DNA of 64,000 nt, from positions 62,001-126,000 of IMG/VR virus record IMGVR_UViG_3300032047_002388; one strand, 5' to 3'. This DNA comes from a virus. The first letter of the stretch is position 1, and the number at the start of each line of letters is the position of its first letter. Below are positions 14,371 to 64,000 of this stretch, piece by piece. The translations under genes were made by a program, and so were the position numbers. Under the pieces are notes generated by a model. The model did not search any database, was not told the origin of the DNA, and saw only the letters and a program-made list of their open reading frames with translations.

Positions 14371-20853
<6,483 letters not shown>

Positions 20854-30917: not shown

Positions 30918-33900
30918 ATGGCTATAATCAAAAAATTTTCATCACTAGAGAATTTGAGTAGATATGGTGTATTTTTGAATGATACCAATCCAAACTCAGA
31001 TTACTTTAGAATTACAGAATTAGGAGAAAATCTTACTGGTGGTAAGAATGGTTTCCTTATAGAAGGTTCTGAATGTCTTAAAGAAACTACTGATATAAAA
31101 ATTGAAATATTGGATGTAAATGGTAATCCAGTATATTTCGAACCAGGTCAAGGTATTCCTCAATATTACGAAGGATTATCTAAAGTAGTAGGAATTTATG
31201 TTTACGAAGATACCCCAATCGGACTTGGTAAAATTACTATTCTCGGTGAATTAAAATCATATTTTGATAAAAACGATGCAGGAAATAAACTTGATATACC
31301 TGAGGAATGGAGGGGTGTATATAATGTTAAGTGGGAACGAACAATAAACATAAATAAAAATCTTGCAAACGAAACTAGAGTTCGTTTTTACAAAAGACCA
31401 AAGATTTCCATAGAAGAAATTTCCAAACCTATTTTTACAAAAACAATTCCAATTGCAATCCATTCTGGTAGTATTGAAGGACAAGCATTTACTCCACCAG
31501 AAGGTCAAGATTATAATTCTTATGCAGGTGGAGTATTATATAAATTGATTCATGATGGAGGGCCTTTGTTTAGTTCCTCTATGGATGAAACTCAATTATT
31601 TATTGAAGATTTAAATTTTAATCCAACTGTAAAAGAAGTATTAAGTGAAACAGAATTATTAGTTGATTCTGCATATACAAGTTCAGATGGAACAGTTAGT
31701 GGGTTTGGTCCAAAAGCATACAATACTTCATTTGAAAATAACGATGGAGTAGTTACAGTTGAATCGGCATTGACTGGTTCATTTGCAAAAATAAAACTTA
31801 CAAACTTAAAAACTTTTGTTGGAGATGTTGCAAGAGTAAAAGTATTTAGAAAATCAAGAAACGAAGCTGGTGATTTTACATTAGTACAAGAACAAAAATT
31901 AGAATCAACTGAGTTGTTAAAAGATATAACAACCCAAACAGATACAGAATTATCATATGGAATATTCAATGATTACAACTTAAGTAATTATTGGATTACA
32001 TCATCCAACTCACCAGTTACAGTTAATAACACACAACTTCTTAATTCTATAAAAGTAGATTATGTAGGAAGTGGTACACAATTAATTTATACATCAGAAT
32101 CAATTGAAGTTGGTAGTGATATAGAATATAACTTATCATTCAAAACTAAATTGAGTGGTTCTGCAAGTGATTCTAAACAAATAAACGCATATCTAAGTTC
32201 ATCTGAATTTACACAATCAATCGTAACAGTTAGTGGTTCTAATGATACACTTCAAAAATTTGATGTTAATAAAAATATTATATCAACAAATTCAGGTAGT
32301 GCAAGATTAGTATTTGAGGTAAATGGAGATGATTGGTACATATCAAATGTATCATTTAGAAATGCAGAAGAAACTGCGTTTTCACCTGATGAGTTTACAT
32401 TAGTACAACAAGTACCTAGAAAACTTGATTCTGAGTTTTTTGATTTTAAATTTGAGTTCTATGATATAAACAATAACTTTATACCAGTAGAAATCGGTAC
32501 ATCAAAAGAATTTAGTGGAGGTAATTTAACAACAACATCAAATGTTAGATTGTTAGAATTTGAAACTGATAGAACTGCATTTAGATTTTCAAGTGGTTCA
32601 TTAGGTAATCCACCATTTCAACAATCAAGATTTAGAGTAACATCAAATGGATTGACAGGTTCAATTACGTTTGCATCTGCTGCGTTTGATAAAAATGGTG
32701 TTTATATAGACCCATCATCTTATGGTGGAGATTATCCAGGTGGATTAACAAGTAACAACGTTTTAACGTTAGCATCTTTTAGTGGTTCTGATGATGGAGT
32801 TATCGTAGGTTCGATTACTTATACTGCATCAATTGAAGATAAAGAAGAAATAGAAACAATAACAAGATTTGAAGATGGTGAACCTGCATCGGCACTTATT
32901 GTAACATCAAATCAAAATCAGTTCTTTTACAAAGCAACTGATTTATCAGTAGAACCAAGTGGACAACAGATACAGATTCAAGCACAAAGAAAAAATCTTG
33001 CATCTGATACAACAACAATTACAGTAAATAGTGGAAGTGGTAAGCCTGGTCTTACACAAGGTTCAACTGTAAATGGTATAACTTCATTTACTTTAAATGC
33101 AAGTGATTATTCATTTGGGACAGGAAATACTACATATGAGTTCAGCGGTTCAGATGAATTCGGTTCACAATTTGTAGATAGAATATCAATAGCACCAGTC
33201 AAAAAATTCGATGGTGTTTCATTACAACTTACAAATAACAATCAAACTTTTAACGCAACTTCACAAAGTGCTGTATCTTCGTTAGAACAGAGTAGTGGTT
33301 CAGTAACATTTAGAATAGGTACAGAACTTATTCAATTCCAAAATGGATTATCATCAAATAATAGATTTGATATTGCAGGAATTACTGGTTCTGGTTGTGT
33401 ACCAACTAGTACAACTCCAAGTAAAAATGAATACTCACTTTCTTCATTTAATTCAGATAGTGGTTCGTTAACAATTAACATTGATTATAAAGATGGTAGT
33501 GGAGATATATCAGAATTTCAACAAATTGTAAATTACACAAAAGCGGTTGCAGGTGTTACAGGACAAGATGGACAAGATGGACAAGATGGTGAAGATGGAC
33601 AAGATGGAACTAACGGCCCACCTGGACCTGGTGTAACATATAGAGGATTGTGGAGTGTACTAACAGAATATGTTTCATCATCATTAAGAAGGGATGTTGT
33701 AGAGGGTACTGATGGAAGTTATTACTTGGCAAAATCATCACACACTGCAAGTAATCTAAATCAAAGACCAGTTGATGGTGGTTCATATACAACATATTGG
33801 GAATCATTTGGTGCAGAATTTAGTTCAGTAGCAACTGATATTTTATTTTCTCAAGATGTTTATGCAAACAGAACTGTAAACATAGGTTCGAGTGGTTCTG

Positions 33901-36900
33901 GTCACCCAGTCATAGCATTGAACGCAGATAGTTCAAATGCAGGAACGGGTCAAGACCCATATATTGCAATTGGAGGAATTACTCAATATGCTGCTAACAA
34001 TGGAATTTTTATTGGATATGATGGTGGGGATAAAAAATTAAGTTTAAAAGGTGGTGCATCTGATGGATTCCTTACATGGGATGGTAGTAGTCTAAACATA
34101 CAAGGTTCAATTAATATAACAGGTGGTGCAACTGCAGATTCTTTATCTGCATTAAATTCAGAAACAAGTTCACTACAAAGTGGTGTAAATAATTCTATAT
34201 TGAGTGGTTCAGCAGCTGCATCGGCAGCTCAAACAAACGCTCAAAGTTTCGCTAGTACTGCAGCAGCTAACTCTGTAACAAGTGGTTCAAACGCAGCATC
34301 AACCGCTCAATCAAACGCTCAAAACTTTGCTAGTACCGCAGCAGGAAACGCAGCAACTTCGGCATCAAATGCTCAATCAACCGCGAATACGGCTCAATCA
34401 ACTGCCAATTCTGCATTAACCGCAGCAGCAAGTAGTGGTTCGGTAGACCCAACAACACAAAGAGTAACTAAAAACGCATCACCGAGTGGAGCTGGATTAT
34501 ATTTCGGTGCAAATAATTTAGGATATTATAATTCATCCGATTGGAAAGCTTATTTAAGTTCGAGTGGTGAATTCTTTTTAGGTAGTCCTTCAGATTCAAA
34601 CTATTTAGAATGGAATGGAAGTTCTTTAAATATTGCTGGTTCAATTACGATTACTGCTGGACCAACTGCAGCTCAACTAAGTTCTCTGAATAGTGCAACT
34701 AGTTCTTTATCTAGTGATATCAGTACAGCTCAAACAAACGCTCAAAACTTTGCAAGTACCGCAGCAGCTAATTCTGTAACAAGTGGTTCAAATGCAGCAT
34801 CAACTGCCCAAACAAACGCCCAAAACTTTGCAAGTACCGCAGCAGCTAATTCTGTAACAAGTGGTTCAAATGCAGCATCAACCGCTCAATCAAACGCTCA
34901 AAACTTTGCTAGTACGGCAGCAGGAAATGCTGCAACTTCGGCATCAAATGCTCAATCAACCGCAAATACTGCAAATAGTTTAGCAACTAACGCCAGTTCA
35001 TCCGCGGGAACTGCACTTCAAAACGCAGCAACTGCTTTATCAACCGCTAACACTAACGCTGGTTTAATACCGAATACTTCTACCGGTCTTATTGATTTCT
35101 CACCAACTCCAAGTGGAGCTGGATTATATTTCGGTGCAAATAATATAGGATATTATGCATCAGGTAATTGGGATGCATTCCTATCATCTAGTGGAGCATT
35201 TTATTTAGGTGGAGAAGATGGGGCATTACAATGGAATGGTAGTAATTTAACAATCTCAGGAGATGGTACATTCACTGGAACTCTATCTGGTGGTACTGTG
35301 GTTGGAGGTACAATGTTCGTGCCTAGTGCAACTAATCCAAAATTCCAAGTAGATGCAGATGGGATTGTTACAGCTGATGAAGCAAAAATAGAAGGTGAAA
35401 TAACTGCATCTGCTGGTTTAATAGGTAGTTGGAAAATTGATGATGTAAATGTGGGTGGTTCGTTAAAAGATTCCGAAGGTAGAATGGTTTTAAACCCAAC
35501 AGATAAAAAAATACAATTGTATAATTCTTCTTTGGAATTAAAAGCACAGATTAATTCCGATGATAGTTTAACATCACCAGGTTTAGGAAATATTTACATT
35601 GCTAGTTATTACAATAACCAACCAGGTAGTACATTGAATAATCCAAGTGGTCCAACATCCTCAACTACTTCAACTTCACTTCAAAGTGGAACACCTACCT
35701 ATACTACTAATGATGGTGAATTTACTGTTAGTGGTTCTAATGGTGGTGATTATCAGTTATCAGGTCTTGATACAATACCAACATGGGGATATGGAAGTAG
35801 TGTGGCGATTGTAAGTGAAACTATATCATCAGGTACTGGTAATCCATCTGGTAATCTTACACCAAACATGGGCCCTAGCACAATTTATCAATCTGGTGTT
35901 ACTTATAAACAATCATATGATTACATTTATTTAGTTATAGAAAAAACTTCTGATAATTCAGAAGTTGCAGAAATATTTCTTGGATATGCATATGCTAGAA
36001 GTGGATATTCAATTAGTAATTATTATCAAGCAACTGGTACTGGTATATATGATTGGCAATACAACAGTGGTTATTCAGTTTCCGGTCATAGAGGTCTATA
36101 TACAGTAAACACACCAATCACAACTACTGTAACTCTTGAAAATAATACCACTTATAGAGTAAGATATAAAAGATTTATAAAAAATAGTTCAGGTAGAAAA
36201 TCATATTTAAATGGTAGTAGTTATACACCAACAAATACTTATTATACTCATAATACTGGTGGGACTAATGCTATTTATTCAGGTCTTGATGAAACTTTTC
36301 AATTGAACCAACCATCAAACTTTGTTGAAATATCAGGTGGAGGAATTCAAGCAGTAACAAACTCAGACCAGTTTGTAAAAATGTTTAGAGTATCACCTGG
36401 TACTTATTCATCTACTTTATTTCAAGTAAGAGGTGGTCAAACCATGTTAAGTAGTGATAGTGATACAGAAACTAATTTATATTCTCATACTGGTAGGAAT
36501 CTTTTAGTTGGTAGAAACACATTAGGATATAGTTGGTATGGTGGTGATTTTTATAACCCACTAGCTAATAATCACAATAGTAATATAATGAAGGGTATTG
36601 TTATGCAATCAGATACCAGTGAATCTCCTGGCTCATCTAGTTCACCCAAAAACCTTGCATACAATATTGCACAAGGATATATGCATATATGGTTACAGCA
36701 TAGTAGTAGTACGAATAGGTATTATGAATTACCAAATCAATTAGATGGTGGTACTTATAATCCTGCATCAACAATTTATATACCAGTAGGATATCAATTG
36801 TGGTTGTTTAACGAATCAGATGGTGATAGTGTATTTGTAAGAGGGTTATTACATGGTGCTAGTAGTAGTAATAATTACCACACACTACAAGGTGGTGGTG

Positions 36901-36998
36901 CTTTACTATGTGTATATATGGGAAGTTCTAGTGCACAAGACCCTACCGAAAGCCACAAATGGATAGTTTACTCAGAATACGATAATACTTGGAGTTAA
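30918..36998 (+). CDS. Large tail fibre protein with collagen-like and coiled-coil repeats
   Basis: The 2026-residue protein is the likely long receptor-binding fibre. The N-terminal 880 residues are beta-rich, with many Ser/Gly/Thr. A collagen-like stretch (residues about 882-902, repeats of GQD/GED ending GPPGPG) leads to a shaft with Ala/Asn/Ser/Thr heptad-like repeats of 26 residues (about 1100-1172 and 1271-1360). Two copies of a SPSGAGLYFGANN...GYY module occur at about 1188 and 1398. The C-terminal 200 residues form a Gly/Ser/Tyr-rich head with no recognised chaperone domain. It is followed by two small genes, one resembling tail-fibre assembly proteins. Composition and repeats are typical of trimeric fibres. 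Confidence 0.8.
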   Translation: MAIIKKFSSLENLSRYGVFLNDTNPNSDYFRITELGENLTGGKNGFLIEGSECLKETTDIKIEILDVNGNPVYFEPGQGIPQYYEGLSKVVGIYVYEDTPIGLGKITILGELKSYFDKNDAGNKLDIPEEWRGVYNVKWERTININKNLANETRVRFYKRPKISIEEISKPIFTKTIPIAIHSGSIEGQAFTPPEGQDYNSYAGGVLYKLIHDGGPLFSSSMDETQLFIEDLNFNPTVKEVLSETELLVDSAYTSSDGTVSGFGPKAYNTSFENNDGVVTVESALTGSFAKIKLTNLKTFVGDVARVKVFRKSRNEAGDFTLVQEQKLESTELLKDITTQTDTELSYGIFNDYNLSNYWITSSNSPVTVNNTQLLNSIKVDYVGSGTQLIYTSESIEVGSDIEYNLSFKTKLSGSASDSKQINAYLSSSEFTQSIVTVSGSNDTLQKFDVNKNIISTNSGSARLVFEVNGDDWYISNVSFRNAEETAFSPDEFTLVQQVPRKLDSEFFDFKFEFYDINNNFIPVEIGTSKEFSGGNLTTTSNVRLLEFETDRTAFRFSSGSLGNPPFQQSRFRVTSNGLTGSITFASAAFDKNGVYIDPSSYGGDYPGGLTSNNVLTLASFSGSDDGVIVGSITYTASIEDKEEIETITRFEDGEPASALIVTSNQNQFFYKATDLSVEPSGQQIQIQAQRKNLASDTTTITVNSGSGKPGLTQGSTVNGITSFTLNASDYSFGTGNTTYEFSGSDEFGSQFVDRISIAPVKKFDGVSLQLTNNNQTFNATSQSAVSSLEQSSGSVTFRIGTELIQFQNGLSSNNRFDIAGITGSGCVPTSTTPSKNEYSLSSFNSDSGSLTINIDYKDGSGDISEFQQIVNYTKAVAGVTGQDGQDGQDGEDGQDGTNGPPGPGVTYRGLWSVLTEYVSSSLRRDVVEGTDGSYYLAKSSHTASNLNQRPVDGGSYTTYWESFGAEFSSVATDILFSQDVYANRTVNIGSSGSGHPVIALNADSSNAGTGQDPYIAIGGITQYAANNGIFIGYDGGDKKLSLKGGASDGFLTWDGSSLNIQGSINITGGATADSLSALNSETSSLQSGVNNSILSGSAAASAAQTNAQSFASTAAANSVTSGSNAASTAQSNAQNFASTAAGNAATSASNAQSTANTAQSTANSALTAAASSGSVDPTTQRVTKNASPSGAGLYFGANNLGYYNSSDWKAYLSSSGEFFLGSPSDSNYLEWNGSSLNIAGSITITAGPTAAQLSSLNSATSSLSSDISTAQTNAQNFASTAAANSVTSGSNAASTAQTNAQNFASTAAANSVTSGSNAASTAQSNAQNFASTAAGNAATSASNAQSTANTANSLATNASSSAGTALQNAATALSTANTNAGLIPNTSTGLIDFSPTPSGAGLYFGANNIGYYASGNWDAFLSSSGAFYLGGEDGALQWNGSNLTISGDGTFTGTLSGGTVVGGTMFVPSATNPKFQVDADGIVTADEAKIEGEITASAGLIGSWKIDDVNVGGSLKDSEGRMVLNPTDKKIQLYNSSLELKAQINSDDSLTSPGLGNIYIASYYNNQPGSTLNNPSGPTSSTTSTSLQSGTPTYTTNDGEFTVSGSNGGDYQLSGLDTIPTWGYGSSVAIVSETISSGTGNPSGNLTPNMGPSTIYQSGVTYKQSYDYIYLVIEKTSDNSEVAEIFLGYAYARSGYSISNYYQATGTGIYDWQYNSGYSVSGHRGLYTVNTPITTTVTLENNTTYRVRYKRFIKNSSGRKSYLNGSSYTPTNTYYTHNTGGTNAIYSGLDETFQLNQPSNFVEISGGGIQAVTNSDQFVKMFRVSPGTYSSTLFQVRGGQTMLSSDSDTETNLYSHTGRNLLVGRNTLGYSWYGGDFYNPLANNHNSNIMKGIVMQSDTSESPGSSSSPKNLAYNIAQGYMHIWLQHSSSTNRYYELPNQLDGGTYNPASTIYIPVGYQLWLFNESDGDSVFVRGLLHGASSSNNYHTLQGGGALLCVYMGSSSAQDPTESHKWIVYSEYDNTWS
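33561..33609 (+). repeat. Collagen-like GGACAAGAT repeat
   Basis: The 9-base unit GGACAAGAT is repeated three times, then a variant GGTGAAGAT and another GGACAAGAT, encoding Gly-Gln-Asp and Gly-Glu-Asp triplets inside the fibre gene. Such triplets form short collagen-like triple helices and can change in number by slippage. Confidence 0.85.
34728..34961 (+). repeat. 78-base tandem repeat in tail fibre shaft
   Basis: Units start at 34728, 34806 and 34884. Each encodes a 26-residue block beginning AQTNAQNFASTAA; the first two are nearly identical at DNA level and the third diverges in its second half. A related block lies at about 34206-34380, so a larger shaft segment including the following GAGLYFGANN module appears duplicated. 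Confidence 0.85.
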
Positions 36999-53530: not shown

Positions 53531-53541
53531 ATATTTATATA
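53531..53541 (+). promoter_or_regulatory. Putative late promoter (ATATTTATATA)
   Basis: An exact consensus copy lies 19 bases before ATG 53561, with ACAAGG as a weak ribosome-binding site in between. Confidence 0.6.
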
Positions 53542-53560: not shown

Positions 53561-56500
53561 ATGAACGAACTTTCGCAATATTTAGTAGAACAAGTACTGT
53601 TAGAGGATGAGAATCCTATTAAAAAAACAGTAGTAGTATTTGTGGGTAGGTTTCAACCTATGCATAAAGGACATTATGGTACTTATCAACATCTTGTCAA
53701 AAAGTTCGGTAAGAATAATGTGTACATAGGTACATCTGATAAAGTACAATTACCTAAATCACCTTTTAACTTCAAAGAGAAGGTGAAAATTGCAACTTCA
53801 ATGTTTGGAATCCCCAAATCCAAAATATTCAAAGTTAAAAATCCATACAAACCAACAGAAATCCTTAAAAAGTTTGATGAAAAAACAACTGCATTCATAA
53901 CAGTAGTTGGAATGAAGGATAAGGATAGATTAAAACCAGATAGTGGTAAATACTTTCAATCATACAAAGGAGAACCATCTGTGGGATATCGAGATGGTGG
54001 GTACGTTTATGCTGCACCCCAAAGTGGTGGTGGTATAAGTGGAACTGAAACTCGTAATGGGTTATCAGTTGGTTCGGACGAACAAAAACAAAATTTCTTT
54101 AAGAAAAGAGCATATGGTAAGTTCAACGCCACAATATTCAAAATGATTACCGATAAACTTAACGAAGATTTAGAAGTTAAGAAGGAATGGATATATGATT
54201 CATTAACTGAAATATCATCAACAACTATTGGTGGAGGTGATGTGGATGATGGACCAAATATCGTTTATCCATCTGCAGATTTATTCAAAAAGATGTCAAT
54301 CGAAAGAGCTGCACAAATCGGATTTGATGTTGTAGGTGATATTCTTGGTGGAGAGGAATCAATTGATAAAACAGATTACAGAGTATATGGAGATGGACCA
54401 GTAGGAGCAGTATCATTCTTTCCAGCTGGTATCATTGGTACTATGACCCCAAACAACCAAGTAGATATCTACTCAAGAGGTGCATATTCACAATGGTTTA
54501 AACATGCAACAAGAGCAGCATCACTTGTAGGATATGAATTAGTTAGAGGATTGGGTATAAATAAAGATGATGCTCAAAAATCTGGTGATGATGCAAAAGG
54601 AGCTAAGGAGTTAGAGAAAGAATTCGAACAAAACCTACAAGAAAACATAGTACTACCTGTTAAAGTTGGTGATACCATTATGACTGGTAGATTTAAGAAC
54701 AAAAAGACAGTTGTAAAAACTATTGGTAAGGATGAACATGGAATGCCAACTATCAATGGTAGAAAAGTAGTAACTTTTCGACTGATGAAAGAAGGATTTA
54801 TTGCAGAAATCGCAGGAACAGAAATAGATTGCCCTAAGTGTAATCATTCATGGGAGTTAGAATCGGATGATGATGAAAAATACCTTTGTCATAATTGTGG
54901 ATATGATTCACAACAACAAGAATACGATTTTGATGCATTTGATTCGTGGCAAGAAAAAAATGGAATGTTGGATGAGAGAGGTAAACTAAGACCATCTCAA
55001 AAACTTGCTAGAAAAAGAGCAATGGCTGGAAAGGCCAGACAGATTGCAAGAAAAAGAAAAAGAACAATGATGAGAAGAAAATCATTTGATAAACTAAAAA
55101 AGATTGCATACAAACAAGCATATAGACAAGTTTATGATGAATTCCATCAAGATTTATTTCCAGGTATCAAGAAATCAGATTTATCTATCAAACAATCGAA
55201 AGTAATTCATAAAAATGTAGTAAGAAAAAAAGGTAGAGTAATGAAACGTGCAAAATTCAAATTCTTACCTGCATTAAGGGCCAAAGAAGCCGAAAAGTTT
55301 GGACAAAAGGAAGATTCAAATCCAAAGGCACATCCACAAGGTAGTAAGAAAATATCAGGTCGTACAACTGTAATGGATATGTTGGATGTAATTTCTCATA
55401 AAGAATTTGGACCTGATTTTGAAAAACTATCAGTTTCTCAAAAGAAAAAAGTAATTAAGATTGCAAAAAAACATAAATTTGTAACTGAGAATAAAAAGAT
55501 GATATCAGAAGGTGGTGCGTATGGACACATGTCTCACCCATTTGATACTGATATCAATTTAACCTTTGGACAACTTAAAGATATCGTAAATCGTGCACTC
55601 GAAGGTTCACTTGAATTCACTAGAGAGAAAACTGATGGTCAAGCATTGGCAATTTCATGGAGAGATGGAAGATTAGTTGCAGCAAGAAACAAAGGACACC
55701 TAAAAAACAAAGGTGAGAACGCTTTAGATATCAAAGGTGTATCAGATAAGTTTCAAGGTAGGGGTGGATTGAGTGATGCATACAATTATGCGATGAAAGA
55801 CCTTTCAACTGCAATCAAATCTCTTTCAGATAAACAAAGAGATAAGATTTTTAAACAAGGTGCATGTTTTATGAACCTTGAAGTAATATATCCAACATCA
55901 GTTAACGTAATTCCTTATGGACAAGCGTTACTTGTGTTCCATGGCACTATGGAATTCAATGAAGAAGGTGTTGCGATTGGAGAGAATGGTGAAGCAGCAA
56001 GAATATTAGCTGGTATGATTAAACAAGTCAACAAAGATGTACAAGATAATTACACAATTCAAGGACCACCTATCGTAAAATTACCAAAATCACAAGATTT
56101 ATCAAAAAAACGTAGTAAATACTCATCACAGATATCTAAATTACAAAAAGAGTTTGGATTAAAGGATACAGATGGTGTTGCAAACTACCATCAAGCGTGG
56201 TGGGAACAATGGGTTGATAAGAATTCTCCATCAACACTCGATAACAAAACCAAAATGGGGTTAGTTAAGAGATGGGCGTTCTTTGATAAGAAGTTTAGAT
56301 TAGATAAAAAGAACATTACTGATGAAAAAACATTAGAATGGGCTAAAAAGATAGATAAAGATGACCAAAAGAAGATTGGTAAGAAGAACTTAATGAAGTT
56401 CGAACAGATATTCTTAGGTTTAGGTGCTGAAGTATTAGAATTTACTTCATCTGCCCTTACTGTTAATCCTGATAAGGCAGTTCGTGATATGAAAAAACGA

Positions 56501-56707
56501 ATTGATAAAACAATCAAAGATGTTAAGAAATCAGCTGACCCTAAAAAGATAGAAAAACTAAAATTAGAGTTAGGTAGATTGAATTCTATTGGTGGGACTA
56601 AAAAAATAGTTCCAAATGAAGGTATAGTATTTCTATATAATGGTAAAACATTCAAACTTACAGGCACATTTGCATCAGTAAACCAAATACTTGGTATTTT
56701 CTTCTAA
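53561..56707 (+). CDS. Fusion of NMNAT-like nucleotidyltransferase, zinc ribbon and ligase-like domain
   Basis: The 1048-residue protein starts with an acidic amphipathic helix (MNELSQYLVEQVLLEDEN). VVVFVGRFQPMHKGHYGTY (about 24-42) with HKGH and ISGTETR (about 160-166) are the two signatures of NMN/nicotinate adenylyltransferases. A domain of unknown type follows (about 220-330). A zinc ribbon, CPKC...CHNC, lies at about 424-446, and a very basic stretch (ARKRKRTMMRRK) at about 490-560. The C-terminal part has EKTDGQALAISWRDGRLVAARNKG (about 689-712), where Lys 690 fits the KxDG nucleotidyl-lysine motif of RNA/DNA ligases, and FMNLEVIYP (about 770). It is monocistronic and late, so packaging in virions or late RNA/NAD chemistry are both possible. 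Confidence 0.72.
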   Translation: MNELSQYLVEQVLLEDENPIKKTVVVFVGRFQPMHKGHYGTYQHLVKKFGKNNVYIGTSDKVQLPKSPFNFKEKVKIATSMFGIPKSKIFKVKNPYKPTEILKKFDEKTTAFITVVGMKDKDRLKPDSGKYFQSYKGEPSVGYRDGGYVYAAPQSGGGISGTETRNGLSVGSDEQKQNFFKKRAYGKFNATIFKMITDKLNEDLEVKKEWIYDSLTEISSTTIGGGDVDDGPNIVYPSADLFKKMSIERAAQIGFDVVGDILGGEESIDKTDYRVYGDGPVGAVSFFPAGIIGTMTPNNQVDIYSRGAYSQWFKHATRAASLVGYELVRGLGINKDDAQKSGDDAKGAKELEKEFEQNLQENIVLPVKVGDTIMTGRFKNKKTVVKTIGKDEHGMPTINGRKVVTFRLMKEGFIAEIAGTEIDCPKCNHSWELESDDDEKYLCHNCGYDSQQQEYDFDAFDSWQEKNGMLDERGKLRPSQKLARKRAMAGKARQIARKRKRTMMRRKSFDKLKKIAYKQAYRQVYDEFHQDLFPGIKKSDLSIKQSKVIHKNVVRKKGRVMKRAKFKFLPALRAKEAEKFGQKEDSNPKAHPQGSKKISGRTTVMDMLDVISHKEFGPDFEKLSVSQKKKVIKIAKKHKFVTENKKMISEGGAYGHMSHPFDTDINLTFGQLKDIVNRALEGSLEFTREKTDGQALAISWRDGRLVAARNKGHLKNKGENALDIKGVSDKFQGRGGLSDAYNYAMKDLSTAIKSLSDKQRDKIFKQGACFMNLEVIYPTSVNVIPYGQALLVFHGTMEFNEEGVAIGENGEAARILAGMIKQVNKDVQDNYTIQGPPIVKLPKSQDLSKKRSKYSSQISKLQKEFGLKDTDGVANYHQAWWEQWVDKNSPSTLDNKTKMGLVKRWAFFDKKFRLDKKNITDEKTLEWAKKIDKDDQKKIGKKNLMKFEQIFLGLGAEVLEFTSSALTVNPDKAVRDMKKRIDKTIKDVKKSADPKKIEKLKLELGRLNSIGGTKKIVPNEGIVFLYNGKTFKLTGTFASVNQILGIFF

Positions 56708-58102: not shown

Positions 58103-59698
58103 ATGAGTCAAAAAAAATCGCTAAAGGATATTATAAAACTTGAGTATCAGAAATGTGCTCAAGACCCCATACACTTCATGAAGAAGTATTGTATGATACA
58201 ACATCCTGTCCGCGGTAAAATTCCTTTTCATTTATTTCCATTTCAAGAAAAAACACTTGATGGGTTTGCAGAAAACAGATATAATATTATTCTGAAATCA
58301 AGACAGACTGGTATATCAACTTTAACTGCAGGATTTGCATTATGGAAGATGTTATTTAATCAAGATTTCAATGTATTAGTAATTGCAACCAAACAAGAAG
58401 TTGCTAAGAACCTTGTAACGAAGGTTCGTGTAATGAATGATTTCTTACCTAACTGGTTGAAACAAACAACAGTAGAAGATAACAAATTATCTCTGAGATA
58501 TTCAAATGGTTCTCAGATAAAGGCAACTTCATCAAGTGGAGATGCCGGTCGTTCTGAAGCATTATCACTTTTGGTGTTTGATGAGGCAGCGTTTATTGAT
58601 AACATTGAAGATATTTGGATATCTGCACAATCAACACTATCGACTGGTGGTAACGCGATTATTCTTTCTACTCCAAATGGTGTTGGAAACTTTTTTCACA
58701 AAACATGGGTAGAGGCAGAAGAAGAAGTTAATGGATTTAACCCAATCAGATTACATTGGAGTGTACATCCAGAAAGAAACCAAGAGTGGAGGGATAAACA
58801 AGAAATATTACTAGGACCAAAAGGAGCAGCACAAGAATGTGATTGTGATTTCGTTTCTTCTGGTGATACTGTGATTGACCCTCAACTTTTAATGTTCTAC
58901 AAAGAATCGTTTTGTCAAGAACCAGTTGAAAAGGGTGGATTTGACGGAAACTTATGGAAATGGGAATATCCAAACTACAATAAAGGTTATATGGTAGTTG
59001 CCGATGTTGCTCGTGGTGATTCATCCGATTATTCTGCATGTCATGTTATTGATATTGAAGAGGCATCTCAAGTAGCAGAATATAAAGGTAAATTAGATAC
59101 AAAAGATTTTGGAAATTTCTTAGTTGGACTTGCTACCGATTATAATAATGCATTACTAGTGATTGAGAATGCAAATATTGGATGGGCAGTTATACAACAA
59201 GTAATTGATAGAGGATATCAAAACTTATTCTACATGAGTAAGGATTTAAAATATGTAGATGTAGAAAATCAAATGACAAATAGATATCGTGCCGAGGAAA
59301 GAGGTATGGTTGCAGGATTTAGTACTACATCTAAAACAAGACCACTTATTATATCAAAGTTAGACGATTATTTCAGAGATAAATCTGTAACAGTTCGTTC
59401 TAGTAGATTAGTTGATGAATTATTCACTTTCATATGGAATGGGAATAGAGCAGAAGCAATGAGAGGATATAATGATGATTTGGTTATGAGCTTTTCAATC
59501 GGATTATGGGTTAGAGATACCGCTTTGAGATTAAGACAAGAAGGTATTGATTTAACAAAAAAGGCCTTGGGTGGAATTGGAACAGCAACTCATGGTGCTG
59601 TTTATGGGGGTAGTTCTTTACCAGATGGTATGGAATCAAACCCGTGGAAACAGAAAATTGGTGATTCAGAAGAAGATTTGACATGGTTAATTGGTTAA
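58103..59698 (+). CDS. Terminase large subunit gp17
   Basis: This 531-residue ATPase-nuclease packages DNA into the prohead. FHLFPFQEKTLDGFAENRYNIILKSRQTGISTL (about 42-73) contains the adenine-binding Gln region and the Walker A-type loop SRQTGIST (T4: SRQLGKTT; Lys is replaced here). LLVFDEAAFID (about 156-166) is Walker B. The nuclease domain begins with MVVADVARGDSSDYSACHVIDI (about 297-318), with the first metal-binding Asp, and has VIENANIGWAVIQQVIDRGY and GYNDDLVMSFSIGLW (about 458-472) with the later acidic residues. T4 gp17 is 610 residues; marine homologues are shorter, as here. It follows the upstream gene with no gap. Confidence 0.94.
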   Translation: MSQKKSLKDIIKLEYQKCAQDPIHFMKKYCMIQHPVRGKIPFHLFPFQEKTLDGFAENRYNIILKSRQTGISTLTAGFALWKMLFNQDFNVLVIATKQEVAKNLVTKVRVMNDFLPNWLKQTTVEDNKLSLRYSNGSQIKATSSSGDAGRSEALSLLVFDEAAFIDNIEDIWISAQSTLSTGGNAIILSTPNGVGNFFHKTWVEAEEEVNGFNPIRLHWSVHPERNQEWRDKQEILLGPKGAAQECDCDFVSSGDTVIDPQLLMFYKESFCQEPVEKGGFDGNLWKWEYPNYNKGYMVVADVARGDSSDYSACHVIDIEEASQVAEYKGKLDTKDFGNFLVGLATDYNNALLVIENANIGWAVIQQVIDRGYQNLFYMSKDLKYVDVENQMTNRYRAEERGMVAGFSTTSKTRPLIISKLDDYFRDKSVTVRSSRLVDELFTFIWNGNRAEAMRGYNDDLVMSFSIGLWVRDTALRLRQEGIDLTKKALGGIGTATHGAVYGGSSLPDGMESNPWKQKIGDSEEDLTWLIG

Positions 59699-60185: not shown

Positions 60186-61937
60186 ATGGCAGATACTTCA
60201 TTTTTTGGTAGGTTAACTCGACTGTTTTCAACACAGGCGATTGTTCGTGTCGATAAAGATGGTAAAAGAAAGGTAGTTGATACTGATGATAGACAACGAA
60301 CAAACCTTTCTTCACTAAGAGACAGATATACCAAACTACAAAAGACACAATACGAAATGGCTGGCGGGGCTCAATCAATGGCCTACCAACAAGTTCGTAG
60401 AGAAATATTCAGAGATTATGATGCAATGGATAACGACCCAATAATGGCATCAGCTCTTGATATATTTGCAGATGAATCAACATTAAAGAATGAATTTGGA
60501 AATATATTAACTATTCGTTCCTCAAATGAGAACGTACAAGAAATACTTAACAACTTATTCTATGATATAATGAACGTAGAGTTCAATTTATGGCCATGGG
60601 TAAGAAATATGTGTAAGTATGGAGATTTTTTCTTAGGTTTAGAAATGGCTGAGGGTAAAGGTATCGTTAACGTAACACCTTACTCAGTATATAACACCGA
60701 AAGATTAGAAAGAACCGACCCTGAGAATCCTAATTACGTTAAATTCCATATAGAAGATGATATCAATGGAAAAGTTGATTATGAGAATTGGGAAATTGCA
60801 CACTTTAGATTATTAGCAGATACCAATTGGTTACCATATGGTAAATCAATGGTTGAAAATGCTAGAAGATTATGGAAACAATTATCTCTTATGGAAGATG
60901 CAATGTTGATTCACAGAATCATGAGAGCACCTGAGAAGAGAGTTTTCAAAATTGATATTGGTAACATTCCACCAAACGAAGTTGATAACTATATGCAAAG
61001 AATTATCAACAAGATGAAGAAAGTTCCTTTCTTAGATAGAAACACAGGTGAGTACAACTTAAAGTACAACATGCAAAACCTTACAGAAGATTTCTATCTA
61101 CCAGTAAGGGGTGGAGATAGTGGAACTGCTATTGATAACTTAAGTGGTTTAGAGTATTCATCTATTGATGATATCGATTATCTTAAAAATAAATTGTTTG
61201 CAGCTCTTAAGATTCCAAAAGCATATTTGGGATATGATGAAAATGTTAATGGTAAAGCAACACTTGCTGCTGAAGATGTAAGATTTGCAAGAACAATTGA
61301 AAGAATACAAAGAATTGTTGTATCTGAATTAAGTAAGATTGCTATTGTTCATTTATATTCACAAGGTATCGAAGATTCAGAGATGACTAACTTCGAGTTG
61401 GCGTTAGTAAACCCATCTACAATTTACGAACAAGAAAAAGTAAATTTGTGGAGTGAGAAAATTAGATTGGCAACAGATATCAAAGATTTAAATATGTTAT
61501 CTAAGGATTGGGTATATGAAAATATATTCAAAATGTCTGACCAAGAGTTTGCTACACAAAAAACTAAAATTATAAATGATTTAAAAGATAGATTTAGACA
61601 TCGTTCTATTGAAGATGAGGGTAATGACCCTGCTATGGAGGATGAACCAGAAGATGTAGAAGAATCATTAGAAAAAATAAAACAAGAAATTAAAGATAAA
61701 GGTGGTAGACCTAGAGAAGGGGGAACTTACAAAAAGGATAAACATCCATATGGAAGAGACCCATTAGGTGATGACGACCGTACTAAAACCAACAAAAGAC
61801 AAACCAGAGAGAGTAAGGTAAGAGTTTCTAATCAGAAAGCAAAGGAAATTGTAAATGGAGTTTCTTCAAAAAGAAAGTATTTAACTGAAAATGATATGTT
61901 AAATGAAGAAAATCTATTGGCTGATAGAGAAATTTAA
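60186..61937 (+). CDS. Portal protein gp20
   Basis: The 583-residue protein forms the dodecameric portal through which DNA enters and leaves the head. Family-typical segments are YDAMDNDPIMASALDIFADEST (about 79-100), FNLWPWVRNMCKYGDFFLGLEM, PEKRVFKIDIGNIPPNEVDNYMQRIINKMKKVPF (about 249-282), NLTEDFYLPVRGGDSGTAIDNLSG and YLKNKLFAALKIPKAYLGYDEN, all paralleling T4 gp20 (524 residues). The last 100 residues are charged and low complexity (EDEPEDVEESLEKIKQEIKDKGGRPREGG) and look disordered. It follows the 135-residue head protein by 37 bases without a promoter motif of its own. Confidence 0.94.
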   Translation: MADTSFFGRLTRLFSTQAIVRVDKDGKRKVVDTDDRQRTNLSSLRDRYTKLQKTQYEMAGGAQSMAYQQVRREIFRDYDAMDNDPIMASALDIFADESTLKNEFGNILTIRSSNENVQEILNNLFYDIMNVEFNLWPWVRNMCKYGDFFLGLEMAEGKGIVNVTPYSVYNTERLERTDPENPNYVKFHIEDDINGKVDYENWEIAHFRLLADTNWLPYGKSMVENARRLWKQLSLMEDAMLIHRIMRAPEKRVFKIDIGNIPPNEVDNYMQRIINKMKKVPFLDRNTGEYNLKYNMQNLTEDFYLPVRGGDSGTAIDNLSGLEYSSIDDIDYLKNKLFAALKIPKAYLGYDENVNGKATLAAEDVRFARTIERIQRIVVSELSKIAIVHLYSQGIEDSEMTNFELALVNPSTIYEQEKVNLWSEKIRLATDIKDLNMLSKDWVYENIFKMSDQEFATQKTKIINDLKDRFRHRSIEDEGNDPAMEDEPEDVEESLEKIKQEIKDKGGRPREGGTYKKDKHPYGRDPLGDDDRTKTNKRQTRESKVRVSNQKAKEIVNGVSSKRKYLTENDMLNEENLLADREI

Positions 61938-63770: not shown

Positions 63771-64000
63771 TGGGACAATTACTAATAGAAACTAGATTAT
63801 TTGAGGGAAGAGTTAACGAAGATTCCGAAGGAAGAACTATCGTTAAGGGTGTTCTACAACGTGCAGAGGCTCCAAATCAAAACGAAAGAGTATATCCAAA
63901 GTCAATTCTAATGAGAGAAGCAAAAAAATATGAAACTCTTATTAAAGAAAGAAGAGCGTTGGGTGAATTAGACCATCCAGATTCTTCTGTAATAAACTTG
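63770..64000 (+). CDS. Prohead core protease gp21 (partial, N-terminus only)
   Basis: The first 77 residues are visible before the window ends. MGQLLIETRLFEGRV, VKGVLQRAEAPNQNERVYPKSILMREAKKY and RRALGELDHPDSSVINL match the N-terminal part of T4 gp21 (QLLIET, then GIFMQAEVVNRNKRLYPKRIL, then ALGELNHP). The GELDHP block carries one His of the catalytic set of this serine protease family. The enzyme matures the prohead by cutting scaffold and capsid proteins. The ATG shares its A with the upstream TAA. The catalytic Ser and the major capsid gene should lie just beyond the right edge. Confidence 0.92.
   Translation, partial: MGQLLIETRLFEGRVNEDSEGRTIVKGVLQRAEAPNQNERVYPKSILMREAKKYETLIKERRALGELDHPDSSVINL

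Follow-up and report, generated by a model that had tools for sequence, protein, structure and literature searches.

The window analysed here is a 64,000-nucleotide stretch of DNA from a T4-like marine phage (positions 62,001 to 126,000 of IMG/VR virus record IMGVR_UViG_3300032047_002388). It contains an open reading frame (ORF) for a protein with an NMN adenylyltransferase-type (NMNAT) module near one end, a ligase-like module with a KxDG motif (the C-module) at the other, and several smaller modules between them. The short sites found at the module junctions suggest that the protein is a cargo precursor of the phage head. The gene and its parts are listed below; a slash marks the position of a putative cut.

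53561-56707, plus strand: the ORF, 1048 residues, ATG start
53561..53590, plus strand: capsid-targeting-like N-terminus MNELSQYLVE/, residues 1-10
53624..54166, plus strand: NMNAT-type (HIGH superfamily) nucleotidyltransferase module, residues 22-202
54167..54643, plus strand: DDGP module, residues 203-361, bounded by E202 and E361
54644..54793, plus strand: small SH3/KOW-like module, residues 362-411, after LQE/
54809..54976, plus strand: zinc ribbon module, residues 417-472, between IAE/ and LDE/
54977..55330, plus strand: basic K/R-rich module, residues 473-590, after LDE/
55331..55489, plus strand: AHPQG module, residues ~591-643, ending at VTE/; upstream boundary uncertain
55502..55510, plus strand: cleavage-type site ISE/ directly before the C-module
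55511..56704, plus strand: KxDG covalent nucleotidyltransferase (ligase-like) module, residues 651-1048

Modules of the protein

The N-terminal module contains HKGH (residues 35-38) and ISGTETR (residues 159-165), which the original prediction had taken for NMN adenylyltransferase motifs. The AlphaFold model agrees with that assignment and supports a nucleotidyltransferase fold, since it matches NMNAT, NaMNAT and PPAT structures (E about 6e-5, probability 1.00). Among profile matches, phrog_3041 reaches E=1.3e-11 and the best NadM model E=1.4e-7. Only the Pfam superfamily model CTP_transf_like passes its own cut-off (22.5 bits, cut-off 21); the best score against the curated NadM families is 30.8 bits vs a cut-off of 449. 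The motifs GRxQP..H and SGTxxR are invariant in the NMNAT modules, the latter across 54 sequences. The first His of HxGH varies and is replaced in many relatives (GPHH/GKHH), but it is intact in the window protein.

The C-module contains EKTDGQ at residues 689-694, with K690 as the motif I lysine. Motifs III (NLEV, 772), IV (EGIVF, 1020) and V (FKLTG, 1031) follow in the order found in ligases. The motifs E-K-x-D-G-Q, the motif III Glu, E-G-x-x-F and K-x-T-G are invariant across 41 diverse C-modules, the others being 44-53% identical to that of the window protein. The model of the module has a predicted local distance difference test score (pLDDT) of 82.6, with strands at the ligase motifs, a long helical insertion between motifs III and IV and an unstructured stretch over the first 13 residues. 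RNA ligases make up its top 16 PDB fold matches, none individually significant (E 0.048-1.1, template modelling score ~0.2), and a viral RNA ligase fold was matched with E of 3.6e-3. The invariant motifs and the top PDB matches support a ligase-like reading of the module (covalent nucleotidyltransferases and polynucleotide ligases), though the fold score itself is weak.

With T4 RNA ligase 1, fungal Trl1 and archaeal Rnl, the C-module shares the order of KxDG, motif III Glu, EGxV and motif V Lys. It differs from them in its low fold scores, large helical insertion and GGxxGHxxHPFD N-terminus, and in lacking a Pfam RNA_ligase (PF09414) match, which is absent from the window protein and from all of the ten partial contigs searched (the source contig and nine relatives). 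No Pfam, NCBIfam or PHROG family matches the module. A cellular origin was considered and rejected. The six matches in 84,980 genomes lie on contigs (L327-L332) of metagenome-assembled genomes that were binned to unrelated phyla, under six unrelated taxa, and are most likely wrongly binned phage contigs.

The zinc ribbon is formed by C424, C427, C443 and C446 (CPKC...CHNC), and its matches to HypA and TFIIB are weak. K and R make up 33% of residues 473-600 vs 18% of the whole protein. Structure prediction for residues 1-472 has low confidence past residue ~205, so the DDGP, SH3/KOW-like and zinc modules are without a reliable model. In comparisons with eight relatives, the NMNAT and C-modules have the lowest ratio of nonsynonymous to synonymous substitution rates (dN/dS, ~0.05-0.15), and the DDGP module is the fastest-evolving part (mostly 0.2-0.45). 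The AHPQG module is present or moved in relatives.

The zinc ribbon and the Arg/Lys-rich segment that had been predicted between the two ends could thus both be located. The nucleotidyl-lysine reading of EKTDGQ keeps its lysine, Lys690, and gains the invariant motifs I, III, IV and V, although the fold score is weak. The proposed structural check on both ends likewise gave a nucleotidyltransferase fold for the N-terminus and a weak ligase match for the C-terminus.

Leader and junction sites

The N-terminus resembles those of capsid-targeted proteins of the T4 type. Mutagenesis of T4 IPIII has assigned residues 4 and 7 to targeting and residues 8 and 10 to processing (PMC9026906). The window protein reads M1-N-E-L4-S-Q-Y7-L8-V-E10 in the same register, with hydrophobic residues at 4, 7 and 8, Glu10 and an (L/I)xE ending. 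A second possible leader site is LLE/ at E15. In the family, [LIM]xE with its Glu at positions 8-18 is found in 58/71 unique N-termini vs 71/301 other genes of the same loci; the size of this difference is clear, while its nominal p-value is not trusted because the sequences are related. The same genome encodes a gp21-type protease (PF03420), and the major capsid proteins of seven relatives have LLDE/A before the mature N-terminus. In a huge phage the KxDG module stands by itself, preceded by a leader of its own, MKFLKSYEEFLNENLILE/GGSYGH (ending LILE/GG).

Sites of the same kind lie between the modules. At the position before the C-module, 131 unique contexts have Glu at P1 in 106 and Leu/Ile at P3 in 130, with P2 free and no conservation beyond P4. 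This pattern fits the specificity of the T4 protease gp21, with cleavage behind L/I-x-E (PMC9026906). Unique module occurrences were scored for [LIVMF]xE with the Glu 1-6 residues upstream of the module start. The site was found before the C-module (97/117), kinase (11/11), HD (12/12), tRNA nucleotidyltransferase (8/8), zinc ribbon (18/18), SH3/KOW-like (24/24) and basic (16/16) modules. It therefore precedes 83-100% of occurrences of seven module types vs 9% at random positions in the same proteins.

A test that presupposes no modules gave a similar result. Alignment breakpoints fall within 5 residues of [LIVM]xE in 52.7% of cases vs 13.1% for random positions (4.0x), and the control motifs [LIVM]xK/D/Q/N show no enrichment (0.6-0.9x). 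Among 15 close relatives, 13-15 retain the Glu-containing site at E10, E202, E361, E411, E416 and E650 (15/15 at both E202 and E361), and 14/14 retain it at E643. The middle residue of the conserved sites usually changes.

Modular family in relatives

Relatives of the C-module were confirmed in at least 580 IMG/VR stretches on hundreds of contigs. The NMNAT module accompanies it in 96 of 99 complete proteins, and complete NMNAT-KxDG proteins range from 639 to 2104 residues. Other modules sit between the two or, in several groups, before the NMNAT module. Pfam searches of 39 diverse members found a P-loop kinase (AAA_33/Zeta_toxin) in 11, a tRNA nucleotidyltransferase head in 7 and an HD domain in 5; Nudix, RNase T exonuclease and zinc protease (Zn_protease) modules occur once each. 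The PHROG matches on diverse members agree with Pfam (polynucleotide kinase in 2, tRNA nucleotidyltransferase in 7). The window protein is of the short type, without kinase, tRNA nucleotidyltransferase or HD modules. The closest isolate that carries the fusion is the Microcystis phage Mel-JY01.

The P-loop kinase module starts with NDPGI(F/L)K, always after an xE/G-type site (L195, L170, L224, L132, L231 and six more). Its family matches are Zeta_toxin/AAA_33 and, twice, polynucleotide kinase; a PDB search with it gave no match. An ORF that begins MIKLMDLLIE/GINDPGIF suggests a standalone form of this kinase behind a leader. In the head cluster of a phage of the same group (G009; L098:3954-5831), a second module-string protein of 625 residues has repeated SVNE/G-type junctions, which suggests more than one cargo string per phage. 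Erwinia phage Hallingskeid (L109, 5992-12180) has a cluster of NMNAT-Nudix, nicotinamide phosphoribosyltransferase, RNA ligase, Sir2 and Nudix genes, which is an NAD/RNA-repair neighbourhood in a jumbo phage.

Cyanophage cytidyltransferases and DUF6267

Published data on related phages support the presence of a homologous enzyme in virions. Mass spectrometry identified a cytidyltransferase in purified virions of S-SZBM1 with two peptides (PMC9146016) and in those of S-CREM2 with three; the S-CREM2 authors proposed that it enters the cell and named its homology to NMNAT (PMC10665884). These cyanophage cytidyltransferases (phrog_395, T4-GC190; S-SZBM1_140, S-CREM2 gp154) share the HIGH superfamily, an (L/I)xE leader and often a KxDG partner with the window protein. 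They differ in being standalone proteins of ~290-380 residues with the motif GR(F/Y)NPPxxGH, and their partner is separate or, in metaG-MbCM1, fused in the opposite order. The two virion proteins begin MRFRQFIIE/A (S-SZBM1) and MKNFSSFLTE/A (S-CREM2), and 31 of 35 unique N-termini of cytidyltransferase relatives have [LIM]xE within the first 14 residues. The S-adenosylmethionine hydrolase and APH-like kinase of S-CREM2 virions (L239, 838-2082 and 7580-9847) have leaders of the same type, MKDFDSFLEE and (V/M)KRFDAFLTE.

The partner belongs to DUF6267 (PF19782, T4-GC71), a very common family matched by 464 phage records. Its alignment has invariant KxDG and EGxV...K. Like the C-module, it has an N-terminal Hx2H(P/L)xD followed by KxDG, EG(F/Y)V and KxV in the same order, and a cytidyltransferase as partner. 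The DUF6267 protein adjoins the cytidyltransferase in S-SZBM1, the genes are also neighbours in Syn1 and P-SSM4, and the cytidyltransferase lies directly downstream in 47/80 IMG/VR loci. In metaG-MbCM1 the two are fused, with a leader at the fusion point. An assignment of the C-module to DUF6267 by profile was not established. With 8 and then ~88 DUF6267 sequences the hhalign probability was 0.6-4.6%, the window protein has no Pfam DUF6267 match, and a PDB sequence search with both profiles gave nothing meaningful. Foldseek linked the C-module to the metaG-MbCM1 model with a probability of 0.87. Since no profile link was found, the shared pairing may reflect common descent or convergence.

Genome context

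The following features lie around the gene.

53532..53539, plus strand: TATTTATA, putative late promoter element, 29 nucleotides upstream of the ATG
58103..59698, plus strand: terminase large subunit (Terminase_6N, 1.7e-12)
60186..61937, plus strand: T4-type portal protein (Portal_T4, 5.7e-72)
63773..64000, plus strand: start of a gp21-type prohead protease that continues past the window (record 125773-126273; Peptidase_S77, PF03420, E=1.8e-27)

The terminase, portal and protease genes downstream bear out the earlier placement of the gene beside head genes. The claim that it has its own late-type promoter is plausible in a modified form. The T4 element TATAAATA was not found on the coding strand upstream of the ORF, and as a promoter in the window it was rejected, its copies being no more frequent than chance and almost all on the wrong strand. 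The element TATTTATA, in contrast, has 11 of its 15 plus-strand copies in the window within 60 nucleotides upstream of an ORF (0.7 expected), with sites that include 4187, 5080, 7382, 20876, 53532, 56732, 59714 and 61957. It is likely a late promoter element that differs from that of T4. The window also encodes two very large proteins (14371-20853 and 30918-36998; 2160 and 2026 residues) that have no PHROG matches.

Proposed explanation and alternatives

The gene is best explained, with a probability of roughly 70%, as encoding a head-packaged cargo precursor, a polyprotein that would be cut by the gp21-type protease and whose enzymes would enter the host with the DNA. The first ~10-15 residues would serve as a T4-type capsid-targeting sequence. 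In the prohead, the protease would cut after (L/I/V)-x-E, removing the leader and releasing the NMNAT-type, DDGP, SH3/KOW-like, zinc ribbon, basic, AHPQG and KxDG ligase-like modules. The freed modules would enter with the DNA and be active before early gene expression. NMNAT and KxDG form a constant pair, and further cassettes, often of the RNA-repair kind (P-loop kinase, tRNA nucleotidyltransferase, HD), are gained or lost between lineages. The role of the freed enzymes may be to restore substrates, whether nucleotides or RNA, that host defence has damaged. Among the roles that the original prediction names, the leader, the gp21-type sites and the cyanophage mass spectrometry speak most strongly for delivery in the virion. 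The assumption in that prediction of a single bifunctional enzyme is probably wrong, as the domains of a precursor would be cut apart.

This explanation extends two known ideas. T4 IPI-III and Alt have a ~10-residue leader that ends in (L/I)xE, a protease of the gp21 family and late genes in the head region, as seen here, and ejection with the DNA is a further proposed likeness (PMC9026906). T4 has one protein per leader, whereas here a single leader heads several modules in a row, every junction of which has a site; family searches gave no link between the window protein and Alt or the internal proteins. Polyvalent proteins also combine unrelated enzymatic domains in one injected polypeptide with shuffled architectures, and proteolysis is the presumed means of separating the domains (Iyer et al. 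2017, PMC5512222). They contain an embedded (zincin-like) peptidase or an ArdC-N hub, neither of which was found in the window protein (a Zn_protease module is present in 1/39 relatives). Processing here appears to occur in trans at short sites, around a core of NMNAT and KxDG.

Several observations weigh against the precursor. The (L/I/V)xE site is short, and the folded C-module itself contains conserved copies (E808, E960). At breakpoints, enrichment is seen for the reversed control motif E.[LIVM] as well (2.1x). One clade has LLM/GG before the C-module (23/131 contexts), and the AHPQG module has an upstream site in only 2/5 contexts. The fold match of the C-module to ligases is weak. Most DUF6267 proteins are without an obvious leader, and the standalone DUF6267 partner gp141 was undetected in S-SZBM1 virions (PMC9146016).

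If the (L/I/V)xE repeats were mere linker composition, the protein could be a conventional multidomain enzyme that is synthesised in the infected cell and stays whole, with NMNAT and KxDG serving one reaction path (for instance NAD-linked capping or ligation of RNA). The near-constant co-occurrence of the two modules, and the adjacent or fused genes in cyanophages, suggest a joint reaction, and both modules are under strong purifying selection. This is nevertheless unlikely, given the late position among head genes with a late-type promoter element, the huge phage in which the C-module occurs by itself with a leader, the sites that mark the starts of seven unrelated module types and the homologous cyanophage enzyme found in virions. 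Another reading, in which the protein would belong to the head scaffold or core and its enzyme-like domains would be relics with a structural function, is very improbable. Cleavage at LxE sites also occurs in proteins of the head core, with gp21 cutting those of T4 into pieces (PMC9026906), and the gene lies within the head cluster. The replaced first His of HxGH could mean that activity was lost in those relatives, but not in the window protein. Against this, active-site motifs do not vary among diverse C-modules, the two enzyme modules have the lowest dN/dS, and the inserted modules are diverse, intact enzyme families.

What the enzymes would do is inferred. Taken together, the kinase, KxDG, tRNA nucleotidyltransferase and HD modules look like a set for RNA or tRNA repair, and the NMNAT module could restore NAD. 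A capsid-targeted string of swappable cassettes bounded by protease sites, from which head maturation frees a kit (NMNAT, KxDG ligase, P-loop kinase, tRNA nucleotidyltransferase, HD) for mending NAD and cut tRNA upon entry, ahead of all phage gene expression, is a tentative proposal with somewhat less than an even chance. Complete NAD salvage by the phage is not favoured and was not adopted, because no NAMPT or NAPRT homologue was found in the ten partial contigs. Alternatively, the protein may be packaged as proposed but perform other chemistry: the nucleotidyltransferase would use something different from NMN (e.g. in CTP/CDP-alcohol chemistry), and the KxDG module would cap nucleic acid or AMPylate protein instead of sealing RNA. 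Because this reading rivals the cargo-precursor explanation only in what the enzymes do, the two overlap in likelihood; it is possible but rather doubtful. The NadM scores far below the curated cut-offs point to it, as do the missing NAMPT/NAPRT and PF09414 matches and a KxDG module with a long helical insertion and no family match. On the other side, the closest structures of the N-terminal module include NMNAT and NaMNAT as well as PPAT, RNA ligases head the fold list of the C-module, and the co-packaged modules in relatives are RNA-end enzymes.

Significance

Most knowledge of internal head proteins comes from a few model phages, where each is packaged singly. If the precursor explanation is correct, a modular protein cut at every junction would account for the loading of many different enzymes by marine phages through a single targeting signal. 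The combination of a leader and (L/I/V)xE junctions would provide a sequence rule to predict the injected proteins of uncultured phages, and the role of the common DUF6267-cytidyltransferase pair would become testable.

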